IMG/VR virus record: IMGVR_UViG_3300021509_000002
Coordinates: 1-40,532 of that record
Strand: one strand, 5' to 3'
Length of the DNA: 40,532 nt
From: a virus
Numbering within the stretch: the first letter of the stretch is position 1; each line of letters begins with the position of its first letter. A program made the position numbers and the translations under genes. Positions 9,431 through 40,532 of the stretch are shown in pieces. The notes beneath the pieces are model-generated. The model worked only from the letters and a program-made list of their open reading frames with translations, was not told the DNA's origin and ran no database searches.

Positions 9431-9727
9431 ATGAAAACCGTACATTTATTTTTGCTGTCTGACGAAGTGCTGGAGAACGTGATTGGAGACGATTCTCTGG
9501 CAGATTCCAAGGAGACAATGGTCATGGACACGCTGGAAAACATAGACACAGAGAAAGGCTTCGATGTTCTAATATCCAGCGTCATGGAATCAGTGCATTT
9601 TGAAGATTGGCTTGCTGAATATATCAAGCCTGATCTTCAGGCCGCACGAGAAGAAGGTGCTTATTACGCCAAACACCCGGCTGAATACTATGAAGACACC
9701 CGGGGAAGGAGATGGAGAAGAGGATAG
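9431..9727 (+). CDS. Unknown acidic early protein, 98 residues
   Basis: ATG 9431 after AGGAGGTAGAACC. Strongly acidic N-terminal three-quarters (SDEVLENVIGDDSLADSKE, ENIDTEKGFDV), then an Arg-rich end RGRRWRRG. No recognised family. Last gene before the repeat-dense non-coding region. Confidence 0.72.
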   Translation: MKTVHLFLLSDEVLENVIGDDSLADSKETMVMDTLENIDTEKGFDVLISSVMESVHFEDWLAEYIKPDLQAAREEGAYYAKHPAEYYEDTRGRRWRRG

Positions 9728-9816
9728 GCTGAGACCTGGAAAGTATCCCAAAAAACCCAGTGGGTTATCTGGCTGCCAAAAATGCCACTGGCTCACCTGG
9801 GACTTGTTGGGACACT

Positions 9817-9907
9817 TGCTAGCAAAAGGGGGCAATTGCTGGCAAATGGGGACACTTGCTACCAAATGCTAGCAAAAGCCACCAAATGCTACCAAGTGCT
9901 AGCAAAA
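9817..9907. repeat. 10-bp-phased TGCTAGCAAA repeats
   Basis: TGCT begins at 9817, 9837, 9857, 9867, 9887 and 9897, with a degenerate unit at 9877; each is followed by a [AG][GC]CAA core. All starts are exact multiples of ten apart, one helical turn, as expected for cooperative protein binding on one DNA face. Confidence 0.8.
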
Positions 9908-9916
9908 GGAACGGTA

Positions 9917-9980
9917 GAAACCCCGGCACGCTTGCATTTCTACACCCGGAAACCCCGCCACGCCCTAGTTTCTACACCCA
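9917..9980. repeat. Two tandem 32-base repeats
   Basis: 9917-9948 and 9949-9980 match at 25 of 32 positions; both begin GAAACCCC and end TTTCTACACCC. The first also contains inverted arms GTAGAAA (9914-9920) and TTTCTAC (9937-9943). Confidence 0.8.
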
Positions 9981-9990
9981 GAAATAGCCG

Positions 9991-10083
9991 GTCAGTGGAT
10001 ATGGATGTTAGCATTAACCACTACTCAACTAGCATAAATGTAACATTAATACCTGCTCAGTGGGTATAATTGTTAGCATTAAC
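9991..10083. repeat. Pair of 28-base direct repeats, 65 bases apart
   Basis: 9991-10018 and 10056-10083 match at 23 of 28 positions, sharing TCAGTGG and the 12-base end TGTTAGCATTAA plus C. They lie between the 10-bp repeats and the promoter element. Confidence 0.75.
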
Positions 10084-10130
10084 AAACAGGACAAAAGGAT
10101 GTGCAAAAATAAGTAAAAAAAAGATGATTT

Positions 10131-10165
10131 CACTCTTGACATTATTTCCGGTGTTTTCCTTTTAT
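10131..10165 (+). promoter_or_regulatory. Promoter-like element before the initiator operon
   Basis: The 23 bases 10131-10153 match 23485-23507 at 21 positions, beginning CACTCTTGACA and ending CCGGTG. TTGACA is at 10136-10141; a weak TTTTAT lies 18 bases on at 10160-10165. It is well placed to drive 10182 and the initiator gene. Confidence 0.55.
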
Positions 10166-10181: not shown

Positions 10182-10352
10182 ATGTGCAAAGATTTACTGA
10201 CGACAAAAGAGCTTTGTGACAGGCTTAAAGTCACAAGACAGGCTATTAGTCTCTGGGTTCGGACTGGCTGCCCTGTTGAAATAAAATATCCCCGTCGATA
10301 CGATTGGGAGAAAGTAAAAACGTGGCTCAACAATAGAAGCAGGGGCGTGTAG
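10182..10352 (+). CDS. Small helix-turn-helix DNA-binding protein, 56 residues
   Basis: I choose ATG 10182, five bases after GGAGG, rather than a TTG at 10170. The sequence LLTTKELCDRLKVTRQAISLWVRTGCPVEIKYPRRYDWEKVKTWL is a MerR/excisionase-type winged helix-turn-helix. With no integrase present, it is more likely a regulator or an accessory replication factor than an excisionase. It lies two bases upstream of the initiator gene in the same operon and beside the repeat-dense region, which it may bind. Confidence 0.85.
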   Translation: MCKDLLTTKELCDRLKVTRQAISLWVRTGCPVEIKYPRRYDWEKVKTWLNNRSRGV

Positions 10353-10353
10353 T

Positions 10354-11001
10354 ATGGCAAAGCAATCTTTCCTGATGTATTGTGACTACAGACAGCACTT
10401 TCTCCTATTATCGAAAGAGCAGCAGAGTGATTTATTGATGTTCATTTTCGATTATGTCGAGACTAGAGAGGCGCCAAACATTGACGATAAACTCGTTGCA
10501 ATGGCGTTTTCTTTTATTAAATCTAATCTTGATCGTGATTTTGATAAATACGATAAAATCTGTAATCGTAATAGAAATAATGGCTTACGGGGAGGCCGGC
10601 CAAAAAACCCAGTGGGTTATCCTGAAACCCAAGGAAACCCAGAGAAACCCAGAGAAACCCAGAGAAACCCAGAGAAACCCAAAAAAGCCGATACTGATAC
10701 TGATATTGAAAATGATACTGATAAGAAGAAAAAGAAAAAAGTATATAAAAAAAAGAAATTCACACCACCAACACTTGAAGAGGTCAAAAAATACTGCAAA
10801 TCCAGAAACAACAACGTTAATCCTAAGCGATTCTTTGACTTTTATGAAACTGCTGATTGGTTTGATAGCGAGGGCAAGAAAGTCGCTAACTGGAAACAGA
10901 AGGTTATTACATGGGAAGGCAATGATAATTCGAGAAAGCCCACCAGGTCTTCTACGAAGCCTTGGGTTGGCGAAGATTATGCTAGCAAGATACATATTTG
11001 A
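10354..11001 (+). CDS. Replication initiator-like protein (DUF6291/DnaD-like), 215 residues
   Basis: Residues 1-85 match the DUF6291 pattern known from phage replisome organisers (SFLMYCDYRQHFLLLSKEQQSDLL, MAFSFIKSNLDRDFDKYDKIC, GLRGGRPK). Residues 91-110 are a linker repeat built on ETQRNPEKPR, encoded by six 10-base GAAACCC units, followed by an acidic then Lys-rich stretch. The C-terminal domain (about 135-200) contains TPPTLEEVKKYC, NPKRFFDFYETADW and NWKQKVITW. With the DnaC-like loader downstream it should nucleate replication. Having repeats inside the linker-coding DNA resembles lambda O and its origin. Confidence 0.85.
   Translation: MAKQSFLMYCDYRQHFLLLSKEQQSDLLMFIFDYVETREAPNIDDKLVAMAFSFIKSNLDRDFDKYDKICNRNRNNGLRGGRPKNPVGYPETQGNPEKPRETQRNPEKPKKADTDTDIENDTDKKKKKKVYKKKKFTPPTLEEVKKYCKSRNNNVNPKRFFDFYETADWFDSEGKKVANWKQKVITWEGNDNSRKPTRSSTKPWVGEDYASKIHI
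10600..10760. other. Candidate origin inside the initiator gene
   Basis: A copy of the 22-base element from 9748 (10600-10621) is followed by six GAAACCC units starting at 10624, 10634, 10644, 10654, 10664 and 10674. These are followed by a purine- and A-rich stretch (10681-10760) that would melt easily. Phased iterons plus an AT-rich flank within the initiator gene is the classic lambdoid origin layout. Confidence 0.55.
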
Positions 11002-12547: not shown

Positions 12548-13234
12548 ATGAATTACCATGACAAGCTGATAAAAAACCTTGAGACCCGGATTGCTGAGGA
12601 GCTGGAACGGATTGAAAACCCCTCAGGCTCAAATCCAGCTACTCTGTGGGAAGATAACTACGTGAGAGATATGCAAGGACAGATTGAGAAATTGAACGCC
12701 GCAGAATTGATATTCCCGCCTTCTTACGTTATCGAAAATCCGAATATCATCGATGCGGTGAAAAAGGCGTTCAAAACACTGACGTTTAATTTCTGCTTTA
12801 CCGGCAGGGCTGGGGTCGGGAAAACGTATCTGATGCGAATTATCAAAGGCGGTGTCTATAACATTGGTCTTATTCGCAAATCTAACAGCATCAACTGTAT
12901 TGAGGATTACGATCAATACCTCAAGGCCAGAAAAGCAGACTCCACCTATCACCCTGACACAAAATGCCAGTTTCTTTTTATCGATGATGTCGGTGACGAG
13001 AAACCATCAACGGACGCCGCTCATTCCTGGATAGCCGGAATAATCCAAGAACGATACGAATATTGGAGCAAACACCCGGAATGCAGCACTATAATTACAA
13101 CAAACCTCCCCACAACCGATCTTATATCCATTTACGGGGAGCGGGTTGTTGACAGAATGCTGGATCAATACACATTTTGCAAATTCACAAACGAATCTTT
13201 CAGGCTGAGAAACCAGAAAGTAATCGAGGGGTAG
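12548..13234 (+). CDS. DnaC/IstB-like AAA+ ATPase, probable helicase loader
   Basis: ATG 12548 after AAAGGAGGGATAAG; 228 residues, a normal length for the family. Walker A GRAGVGKT is at residues 86-93, Walker B LFIDDVGDE near 143-151, and a sensor-1-like TIITTNLP strand near 186-193, with an Arg-rich C-terminal segment. The N-terminal 60 residues are a helical, probably helicase-binding part. With the initiator-like protein at 10354 it would load the host DnaB on phage DNA; no phage helicase is visible. Confidence 0.88.
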   Translation: MNYHDKLIKNLETRIAEELERIENPSGSNPATLWEDNYVRDMQGQIEKLNAAELIFPPSYVIENPNIIDAVKKAFKTLTFNFCFTGRAGVGKTYLMRIIKGGVYNIGLIRKSNSINCIEDYDQYLKARKADSTYHPDTKCQFLFIDDVGDEKPSTDAAHSWIAGIIQERYEYWSKHPECSTIITTNLPTTDLISIYGERVVDRMLDQYTFCKFTNESFRLRNQKVIEG

Positions 13235-23682: not shown

Positions 23683-24378
23683 ATGAAAAAGATAGATGGA
23701 TTCGCCACAAATTGTGGGGACAATGATCGTGTAATTACTTTAAGCAATAGTATTTATACAATTGGTTGCTTTAGGGGCACAAAAGAAGAAGCTGTCAAAG
23801 CTATAGAAGAAAAATATACAGGTGAAGATAAAATCGCTTATGTCAAAAAATTAAACGATTGTGAAGATATGGAATGGCTAACTGATGAAATACACGAACA
23901 ACTAAAAGATGATAAGGATTGGCAAGTTCGCTTAGCTGCCGCAAGATACAGCGATAAATACCATGAACAGTTCAAGGACGATGAATCTTGGCGTGTTCGT
24001 TTAGTTGTTGCCGAGTACAGCAATAAATACCACGAACAACTAAAAGATGATAAGGATGGATATGTTCGTGTTGCTGTCGCCGAGTACAGCAATAAATACC
24101 ACGAACAACTAAAAGATGATAAGGATGGATATGTTCGTGTTGCTGTCGCCGAGTACAGCGATAAATACCACGAACAACTAAAAGATGATAAGGATTGGCA
24201 AGTTCGCTTAGCTATCGCAAGATACAGCGACAAGTATCATGAACAGTTCAAGGACGATGATTCTTGGCGTGTTCGTTTAGTTGTTGCCGAGTACAGCAAT
24301 AAATATCATGAACAGTTGAAGGACGATGAATCCTGGTATGTTTGTATAACTGTTGCGGAATATAAAAAGCAGAAATAA
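23683..24378 (+). CDS. HEAT-like 23-residue repeat protein, 231 residues
   Basis: ATG 23683 after AAAGGAGAGAGAG. Residues 1-68 are unique; residues 69-228 are seven tandem 23-residue units of the form KYHEQLKDDxxxxVRxAVAxYSx, encoded by 69-base DNA repeats. Units 3 and 4 are identical in DNA apart from the last codons. Units 1 and 5, and 2 and 6, resemble each other most, suggesting four-unit block duplication. The two-helix units with VR-x-AVA resemble HEAT/LRV repeats that make a protein-binding solenoid. Partner unknown. Confidence 0.8.
   Translation: MKKIDGFATNCGDNDRVITLSNSIYTIGCFRGTKEEAVKAIEEKYTGEDKIAYVKKLNDCEDMEWLTDEIHEQLKDDKDWQVRLAAARYSDKYHEQFKDDESWRVRLVVAEYSNKYHEQLKDDKDGYVRVAVAEYSNKYHEQLKDDKDGYVRVAVAEYSDKYHEQLKDDKDWQVRLAIARYSDKYHEQFKDDDSWRVRLVVAEYSNKYHEQLKDDESWYVCITVAEYKKQK
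23890..24362 (+). repeat. 69-base tandem coding repeats
   Basis: Seven in-frame units with period 69; the unit starts 24028, 24097 and 24166 are exactly 69 apart, and the first two intervals are almost identical in sequence. Likely unstable by slippage or recombination. Confidence 0.85.
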
Positions 24379-30462: not shown

Positions 30463-31338
30463 TTAACTTATTGTTGCACCAAATCCACCAAGGATAAGCA
30501 AATATCGATTTGTTGATCCTGATGGAATAATATAAACACATGACCCCTGCCCAGATAAGGTAATTGTTGTCCCTGTACTCTGTGTTCCCGAATCTTTCAT
30601 AAAAGAAAACAAATCTAATGGGTCACAGGAAATTATTGCATTGTTTGTACCTGCCGTATTAACAAAAAGCATCGGCGCTCCAGCATTAAGTTGCGTTGTG
30701 ATCGGGAGAGATACATTTATCACATTACTTGCTGTATCAAGTGCGTAATACCCCGCACGGGTGGCAGTGTAATTTGTTGCTGTTACCTTAACATTATTTT
30801 GCTCTAACGCTTGATTAAGCCCTGATAACGGTTCAGTAACGCCCTTCAGTTCTTCAAACTCAGATTCAGATACACCGGTATCATTTAGCGATTCTGCATA
30901 GTTTAAATCTTCATAATCTCCAGTAAACCCGTCCAGCTTATTCAATTCGTCGGTGGTTGCAGTAATACCATCAAGGGTATTAAGTTCGGTGGTGGTTCCA
31001 GTAAACCCGTCAAGTTTATTTATCTCGACAGTGGTTGCGGTAATACCATCTAAGACATTAAGCTCGCTAACGGTTATAGTTGCACCATTCAAAATATTAA
31101 GCTCACCTGTTGATGCGGTAATGCCATCCAGGACATTTAGCTCACTAGTGCTTAATGTCGCTCCATCTAATATGGCAAGCTCTGCATCACTAAGGCCATT
31201 TCTTATCTGTGACTCGAAATCGTTGACTAAAATCCTTTTAGTGGCATCCGTGCCACCGGTTCCATCTACCGCTACATAATCAGCATCGTTTGCCGTTGTA
31301 ACAACTGTTGTGAGTTCACTTATTCTTTTATCTGCCAT
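30463..31338 (-). CDS. Tail fibre-like protein with repeated ELN-LDG units, 291 residues
   Basis: ATG 31338 after AGAGGAGGTCTATT. The N-terminus MADKRISELTTVVTTANDAD resembles virion-attachment regions of phage fibres. Residues about 50-150 contain seven or eight 13-15 residue units, each like ELNxLDGITATTx, a repeat found in trimeric fibre shafts. The C-terminal third is beta-rich and Thr/Ser/Gly-rich. Likely a fibre shaft with a small head. The host receptor is unknown. Confidence 0.82.
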   Translation of the reverse strand: MADKRISELTTVVTTANDADYVAVDGTGGTDATKRILVNDFESQIRNGLSDAELAILDGATLSTSELNVLDGITASTGELNILNGATITVSELNVLDGITATTVEINKLDGFTGTTTELNTLDGITATTDELNKLDGFTGDYEDLNYAESLNDTGVSESEFEELKGVTEPLSGLNQALEQNNVKVTATNYTATRAGYYALDTASNVINVSLPITTQLNAGAPMLFVNTAGTNNAIISCDPLDLFSFMKDSGTQSTGTTITLSGQGSCVYIIPSGSTNRYLLILGGFGATIS

Positions 31339-40278: not shown

Positions 40279-40530
40279 CTATAAACCCAATTTCTTTGAT
40301 GGGCTTTCATATGTTTTGTTTTGGCCTTTGCCTCTCGGTGGTAAATCATTCGGCGGGTCATCTTCAGATTCACCAAAGAACCCGGCTTTGTCATAAATCT
40401 CATAAACCTTGAGATTCTGTTTTGCCTGTTCAGCCGTTAAGTTTTCACCGAAAGCAAAGTCCGCTTTGATTTTATTGTATTTGTCGAAATTCGGATCAGT
40501 TTCGGCTATATCAAAAACCTTGGAAATGTC
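40279..40530 (-). CDS. Scaffold-like head protein (C-terminal part; remainder at 1-408)
   Basis: Stop TAG at 40279-40281; the frame is open upstream to the window edge and is the same gene as 1-408 through the terminal overlap. This part encodes the helical segment and a Pro/Gly/Lys-rich tail (FFGESEDDPPNDLPPRGKGQ and so on). Ten bases separate it from the major capsid start. Confidence 0.75.
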   Translation of the reverse strand, partial: DISKVFDIAETDPNFDKYNKIKADFAFGENLTAEQAKQNLKVYEIYDKAGFFGESEDDPPNDLPPRGKGQNKTYESPSKKLGL

Positions 40531-40532
40531 TT
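40414..40532. repeat. Terminal overlap, right copy
   Basis: Same as 1-119 apart from A versus C at 40432 and T versus C at 40509. Closes the genome at about 40,413 bases. Confidence 0.95.

Follow-up and report, generated by a model that had tools for sequence, protein, structure and literature searches.

Iteron-like arrays of three classes upstream of a DUF6291 initiator operon in a phage genome, possible remnants of initiator gene exchange

Results

Genes of the locus

The window, by which we mean the whole stretch of DNA analysed, is a record of 40,532 bases whose ends (1-119 and 40414-40532) overlap by 119 bp at 98.3% identity, and it is therefore probably a complete phage genome. The repeat region studied here is flanked on one side by an ORF of 98 aa ending at 9727, and on the other by an operon that runs from an HTH gene and a DUF6291 gene to a helicase-loader gene. 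The first gene of this operon (10182-10352, + strand) encodes a small, excisionase-like HTH protein (Pfam HTH_17, E 0.00032, below the cut-off), which is 59% identical to its homologue in a sister phage, L001. The next one (10354-11001, +) encodes a protein with a DUF6291 N-terminal domain (PF19808, 2e-26; 92.4 bits, above the gathering cut-off of 27.2), a linker and a C-terminal domain. Additional small ORFs separate it from a gene for a DnaC-like helicase loader (12548-13234, +; phrog_50, 2.5e-23).

The DUF6291 protein is a probable replication initiator, because its gene contains iterons, a helicase loader is encoded nearby, and its C-terminal domain shows kinship to an annotated initiator by way of L001. 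This domain is 85% identical between the window and L001, and that of L001 resembles the 'replication initiation protein' of Porphyromonas phage phage005b (44.8% over 58 residues, E 6e-6), after whose gene a DnaC-like loader comes next. In a structure model of the window protein (mean pLDDT 78), residues 1-80 and about 140-190 were confident and the linker was low; compared with the PDB, the model gave no Foldseek match at E 0.001 or better (the best VIA Z was 3.5) and no clear fold match. The name DUF6291 was not found mentioned in the literature searched.

The origin inside the initiator gene

Repeat analysis of the initiator gene revealed iterons at 10600-10681 (+), composed of one AACCCAGTGGGTT pair and six 10-bp GAAACCCAGA-like units. 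They are adjoined by an AT-rich GATACT run with a period of 6 at 10690-10723 (+; 5.7 copies, 19/24 matches at period 6), which is predicted to be the probable unwinding element. Iterons with an adjoining AT-rich region inside the initiator gene are the arrangement described for gene O of phage lambda (PMC6022878, PMC7466680), and the working origin of this phage probably lies inside the initiator gene in a lambda-like manner, at 10600-10723. In 32 of 33 loci (the window included, some of them near-identical), the AACCCA arrays inside the gene are followed by a period-6 AT-rich run, with 15 or more lag-6 matches of 24, 15 being the 99th percentile of shuffles; the exception is L126. Beside the intergenic arrays described below, the lag-6 values are 12 and 8 of 24, within the shuffle range. 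Autonomous replication by the intergenic segment (9747-9984) is therefore unlikely, since it is devoid of the AT-rich run of a complete origin.

Repeat layers upstream of the operon

A sequence-only reading of this DNA had described three layers of repeats upstream of the initiator operon, and all of them are present. Units similar to TGCTAGCAAA, phased at 10 bp, span 9809-9908 and are exact at three positions (9817, 9867 and 9897); two contiguous 32-base repeats, 78% alike, occupy 9917-9948 and 9949-9980; the direct repeats, previously given as 28 bases long, are 36 nt in length and 81% alike (9983-10018 and 10048-10083). The best self-matches were 31/40, 32/40, 29/36 and 29/36 at lags 10, 20, 32 and 65, and exceeded all of 1000 dinucleotide shuffles (maxima of 24, 22, 22 and 22, respectively); among 200 shuffles compared at all lags between 5 and 199, the highest value was 24/36. 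The intergenic repeats are real and far above chance, and phased iterons do occur in segment 9747-9984. No transcription terminator was found in the region, and a plasmid search with 9728-10130 returned no match.

The view that these dense repeats have the character of a replication origin, and are linked to the in-gene repeats through one common site, was borne out, the identity of that site requiring revision. The GAAACCC core proposed before is indeed shared by both sets of arrays, with copies on the + strand at 9917 and 9949 and six copies in 10624-10674 (three more are isolated elsewhere in the window, and none occurs on its - strand), but the longest string that the initiator gene has in common with the intergenic stretch is a different one, CCAAAAAACCCAGTGGGTTATC (22 bp, 9748-9769 and 10600-10621). 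As the 32-bp units of L001 keep TTTCTAC in three of three copies and GAAACCC in two of three, GAAACCC was rejected as the main link and common binding core; with TTTCTAC constant, its letters match through GTAGAAA overlapping CCC. The arrays are linked only weakly by GAAACCC, and AACCCAGTGGGTT is the better common site. Duplication of the phage's own initiator gene was rejected as the sole source of the block, this gene sharing at most 22 bp with it.

Three iteron classes

The iteron types of 9747-9984 are of three kinds, each encountered inside initiator genes of other phages. The first is an AACCCA-class site, the class of the window's own initiator, at 9747-9773 (+), which was recognized by its identity to other linkers. 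It reads CCCAAAAAACCCAGTGGGTTATCTGGC, with the inverted pair AACCCAGTGGGTT at 9754-9766, and is identical over 27 bp to the DUF6291 linker of L140, over 26 bp to the linkers of L092 and L154, and over 22 bp to the window's own gene. Within the window, AACCCAGTGGGTT pairs occur at two sites only, the upstream one and the in-gene one. L140 and L154 were found in a scan of viral contigs with AAAACCCAGTGGGTTAT, and a protein search led to L092, a contig of a Flavobacteriaceae MAG. The scan yielded 74 matches in 69 stretches; 37 of these matches sit in ORFs fitting a custom DUF6291 profile, four of them weakly (L102, L103, L141 and L151, L103 being DUF1376 by Pfam), and the remaining ones fall in DUF1376 proteins (L100, L139, L152), in other ORFs or, in 19 cases, where there is no ORF of at least 110 aa.

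Some of the matches outside initiators deserve separate mention. In seven contigs (L109, L110, L119, L124, L134, L143 and L159), AACCCAGTGGGTTA is present once, twice or three times, in comparable surroundings and outside ORFs of at least 110 aa; the custom profile found no match in the parts of them that were examined. Two AACCCAGTGGGTT pairs lie in frame within an ORF outside any initiator in L107 (6983-7366, -) and in L125 (9724-10107, +), and the ORF of L107 has a weak match to an RNase H1 N-terminal domain (PF01693, 0.0019, below the cut-off).

The second kind is a TAGCAAA-class array of 10-bp units, TGCTA[GC]CAAA, at 9809-9908 (+), similar to arrays in DUF6291 linkers. Scanning viral contigs for TGCTANCAAATGCTANCAAA returned 20 stretches, in nine of which the array lies within an initiator linker (L032, L033, L034, L037, L039, L041, L042, L048 and L051, with L037/L039 and L048/L051 as near-identical pairs); all seven initiators of this set that were examined with Pfam (L032, L033, L034, L037, L041, L042 and L048) proved to be DUF6291. 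Vibrio phage D478, found by blastn with window positions 9800-10100, also has TAGCAAA units inside a DUF6291 gene. The other 11 stretches were set aside. Nine of them contain the TGCTAACAAATGCTATCAAA variant outside DUF6291 linkers (L035, L036, L038, L040, L044, L045, L047 and L050, and L049 in other surroundings), and two have the array in other ORFs (L043, L046). The eight listed before L049 have a stretch in common in which TTAGCA/TGCTAA repeats, oriented both ways, directly precede a small ORF. This ORF reads MSEDVQFNLRIPAELKQQIVEAAKKNSRSINAEAQLRLE in seven of them (for L044, no ORF of 120 codons was obtained), and it looks like an Arc-type repressor gene, with the repeats as its operators.

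The third kind, at 9909-9984 (+), consists of two 32-bp units with half-sites GTAGAAA/TTTCTAC, and is identical over 36 bp, the longest such identity, to the GTAGAAACCCC..TTTCTAC array that L001 has inside its own initiator gene. Pattern GAAACCCCGNNACNNNNNNNTTTCTAC occurs in no other viral contig searched, apart from one match in L031 (GAAACCCCG..TTTCTAC), which lies in an unrelated ORF on the other strand and was taken as chance. The N-terminal domain of the L001 initiator belongs to another family (Lin1244_N, PF14297, 26.0 bits against a cut-off of 25), while from the C-terminal part of the initiator onward the two phages share four main blocks of 90-94% identity, and shorter, less similar matches. 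Divergence at fourfold sites between them is 39/219 (17.8%). By our own estimate, 36 identical positions of 36 are somewhat above the drift expectation (0.82^36, about 0.0008; about 0.03 with drift in the lineage of the window only), a hint of constraint or of a late transfer.

Initiator motif and iteron class

The three kinds of array match three initiator classes in other phages, and this speaks against the earlier suggestion that one protein binds all of them, as does the association of protein motif with in-gene iteron class across 66 distinct DUF6291 loci (the window included) collected with the custom profile. NGxxGGRP at the end of the domain accompanies in-gene AACCCA sites in 30 loci, TAGCAAA sites in none and neither class in eight, while [SA]GxxGG without RP accompanies TAGCAAA in eight loci, AACCCA in one (L123, in which both were seen by eye) and neither in two. 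Two loci with AGxxGGRP have neither class, and among 15 loci lacking any such motif one (L126) has AACCCA. The strict TAGCAAA pattern misses L041, counted here as 'neither', whose linker has the variant TGCTAGCAAATGCTAACAAA. A Fisher test on 30, 0, 1 and 8 gave 1.5e-7, a value that overstates the association because many loci were picked by DNA pattern, many are related, and the GGxAK letters may be coded in part by the array. The proteins of L077 and L081 are identical at 76 of their first 78 residues and at 90 of their last 95, and yet differ in iteron class.

As the custom profile was built partly from loci later found with it, and is to that extent circular, ten loci were checked against Pfam, and all ten were DUF6291 above the cut-off. 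The script that collected the linker peptides chose the longest ORF, which for L042 and L114 lay on the wrong strand or in the wrong frame, and these two entries were left uncorrected.

Motif and iteron class covary, NGxxGGRP with AACCCA and [SA]GxxGG with TAGCAAA. The window initiator has NGLRGGRP, and by this rule it is predicted to bind its own iterons; it should recognize the in-gene array and the upstream AACCCAGTGGGTT pair, and not the second and third layers. NGxxGGRP, or a near form of it, was also noticed ahead of AACCCA sites in the DUF1376 proteins of L100, L103, L139 and L152. It is possible that a short, portable binding motif is common to DUF6291 and DUF1376.

An open frame through the repeats

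The sequence-only reading found no credible gene in the region. This holds for a living gene, but one frame on the + strand is open through the repeat layers (9728-10069, 113 codons), and we read it as a probable relic of initiator-linker coding sequence. A frame of at least this length on the + strand appeared in two of 500 shuffles, which is what could be said for a living small gene whose repeats are nothing but coding repeats. We regard such a gene as very improbable: no ribosome-binding site was seen by eye before the ATG at 9782, positions 9782-10066 gave no Pfam match above the cut-off and no PHROG match, tblastn of phage records with the central 82 residues gave none either, and the frame ends inside the second direct repeat.

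Peptides encoded by this frame resemble linkers: KTQWVI occurs as in L102, CYQMLAKATKCYQVLAKG resembles KCYQVLPNATKSKQN of L033, and VETPARLHFYTRKPRHALVST resembles VETPPRPSFYTQKPRHADVST of L001. The two units of the 10-bp array that would place TAG in frame (9857 and 9887) have TAC instead, and of the other five units three keep TAG; as a sign of a coding past, this pattern is evidence from small numbers. The stretch before and in the AACCCA-class site is most similar to linkers in another frame (RPGKYPKKPSGLSG; GGRPKKPKKPSGLSG in L140), the best-matching linkers reading KKPSGLSG there. Because that frame differs from the open one, an indel or two separate captures would be needed. One DUF6291 linker (L123, assigned by Pfam) contains AACCCA and then TAGCAAA sites, in the order of the window. 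A gene holding the entire composite was not found in any phage.

Direct repeats and the operon promoter

Between the arrays and the operon, each of the direct repeats (9983-10018 and 10048-10083, both +), delimited by repeat analysis, contains GTTAGCATTAAC, and the second may include an operator. A -35-like CACTCTTGACA at 10131-10141 (+), noticed by eye and common to L001 (7245-7255), is part of the probable operon promoter, which a promoter scan did not report at this position. The HTH protein might use these repeats as operators, unconnected with the iteron pieces, or they might constitute a fourth class of iterons; both are possible. We consider the operator explanation a reasonable, though rather doubtful, one. 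It would account for the near-palindromic GTTAGCATTAAC occurring twice, 65 bp apart, and for the series of TA[AG]CATWAA (10009, 10030, 10041 and 10074, with spacings near whole helical turns), about 50-120 bp upstream of CACTCTTGACA. L001, however, has the same type of HTH protein and not these repeats, and by letter count two exact copies of GTTAGCATTAAC are within chance (three matches at up to two mismatches, against 3.6 expected). Apart from the window's own loci, GTTAGCATTAAC was found at one place in one contig (L013/L064), inside a coding stretch, and was taken as chance there. Comparison of 9985-10125 with 168 loci revealed no common string longer than 14 bp.

Upstream arrays in related loci

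AACCCA-type sites within 1.5 kb upstream of the domain (less at contig ends) were found in three of the 66 DUF6291 loci, namely L128, L133 and the window, and an upstream TAGCAAA array in the window only; arrays of either class downstream, in the stretch examined, were found in none. In L128 (8255-8520) and L133 (130-200) the AACCCA arrays are intergenic, upstream of DUF6291 genes confirmed by Pfam, with AT-rich runs visible by eye. These genes contain no in-gene array, and in both loci the origin appears to have been relocated to intergenic DNA.

The model proposed earlier, in which the intergenic arrays are a second origin or an autoregulatory site for the HTH or initiator protein, would gain from these two loci, as it would from the one own-class AACCCAGTGGGTT site upstream and from the two copies of GTTAGCATTAAC in front of the operon. 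We nevertheless hold it to be unlikely. The own-class site lies about 365 bp upstream of the probable promoter, the other two arrays are of other classes, and no period-6 run accompanies any of them. An autoregulatory operator should also be conserved in relatives that keep the operon, and L001, which retains the HTH, initiator and helicase-loader genes, has no repeats upstream of them, an outcome that the earlier reading itself had named as evidence against it. Searches with the helicase loader and with the HTH protein likewise turned up L001 as the sole relative, so that this comparison depends on a single sister phage. To judge from L128 and L133, intergenic arrays like these are probably able to function, and the block in the window is thus not to be called dead with certainty.

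Discussion

The explanation that we favour, with somewhat more than even confidence, is that swaps of the initiator gene left displaced linker DNA behind at 9747-9984. The initiators would consist of an N-terminal domain, a linker whose DNA serves as the origin (helically phased iterons, then an AT-rich run of period 6) and a C-terminal domain, and their genes would be exchanged together with their own iterons. Linker pieces with three or more specificities (AACCCA, TAGCAAA and the GTAGAAA/TTTCTAC of L001) may then have remained as a stack in front of the operon now in place. Its initiator would start replication at its own in-gene origin (10600-10723), and the upstream arrays would probably be origins no longer, providing at most one extra site of its class. 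The initiator role of the proteins, their binding to these sites, the history of exchange and the loss of present function are all matters that we infer from sequence. In favour of displaced linkers are the third array, which L001 has inside its initiator gene with nothing upstream, the TAGCAAA arrays inside DUF6291 genes, the 26-27 bp identity of the AACCCA-class site to linkers of other phages, the two classes in the linker of L123, the linker-like open frame, the period-6 run of in-gene but not intergenic arrays, and the pair L077 and L081. Several points count against displaced linkers: the whole composite was not found in any one gene, and there are the single close relative, the mismatch of frames, the 36-bp identity, the arrays of L128 and L133, and the direct repeats, described as 28-base ones, which fall outside the scheme.

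Additional copies of the sites used by its initiator can interfere with a phage, as in the phage-encoded resistance of lactococci. Ectopic lambda origins on a plasmid are reported to arrest lambda (PMC4488673), and plasmids with lambda iterons ITN3-4 to exclude rep-lambda phages when oop is transcribed (PMC3349717). Those decoys are plasmid-borne, whereas the sites described here sit in a phage genome and are known from sequence alone. By analogy, the upstream arrays could be captured iterons at work, either as decoys titrating rival initiators in coinfection or as landing sites by which those initiators are borrowed. Two of the three arrays are outside the classes predicted by the phage's own motif, and still have intact units and phase, and one is 36 bp identical to that of the sister phage, all of which favours this reading. 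We find this unlikely all the same, since one copy per genome makes a weak sink before the phage itself has replicated, the upstream TAGCAAA array is present in one of 66 loci, and decoy binding is purely hypothetical. Slightly less probable still, in our opinion, is the broader idea that the phage hoards iterons of rival origins, of at least two foreign classes, which are active in coinfection, the classes being an exchangeable currency read by the initiator motif.

The likeness to lambda is one of layout, and no sequence relation between O and DUF6291 is claimed. To our knowledge, no stack of foreign iterons is present upstream of lambda O. Like lambda, as described in the sources cited above, the window has in-gene iterons, a run of hexamers and, further on, a DnaC-like gene; unlike the four 18-bp inverted repeats of lambda, its iterons are 10-bp units with one inverted pair. 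In the PLE satellites of Vibrio cholerae, the RepA binding domain and the iterons swap together and the rest of the replicon stays (PMC8263062). The PLE origin is intergenic and its modules are replaced, whereas in the window the iterons lie in the gene and the remnants of several classes would stand side by side. Among the matches listed in searches of the literature on in-gene origins, iterons, lambdoid O specificity, modular exchange and phage-encoded resistance, judged by titles and the beginnings of abstracts, stacked iteron classes outside an initiator gene were not found.

Origins inside initiator genes are already known from lambda, while a stack of three specificities outside the gene would be a record of the swapping of initiators and origins that is usually only deduced. 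If the foreign arrays do work, they would represent a phage-borne form of the origin-decoy interference made so far with plasmids. The survey also offers what may be a testable code, relating a short protein motif to an iteron sequence, in DUF6291, a family of unknown function.

Two further sets of tandem repeats were noticed in the window, both within ORFs. Repeats of 69/138 bp at 23888-24353 lie in ORF 23683-24378 and encode a KYHEQLKDD..VR repeat protein, and 78-bp repeats at 30919-31182 lie in ORF 30463-31338, on the minus strand.
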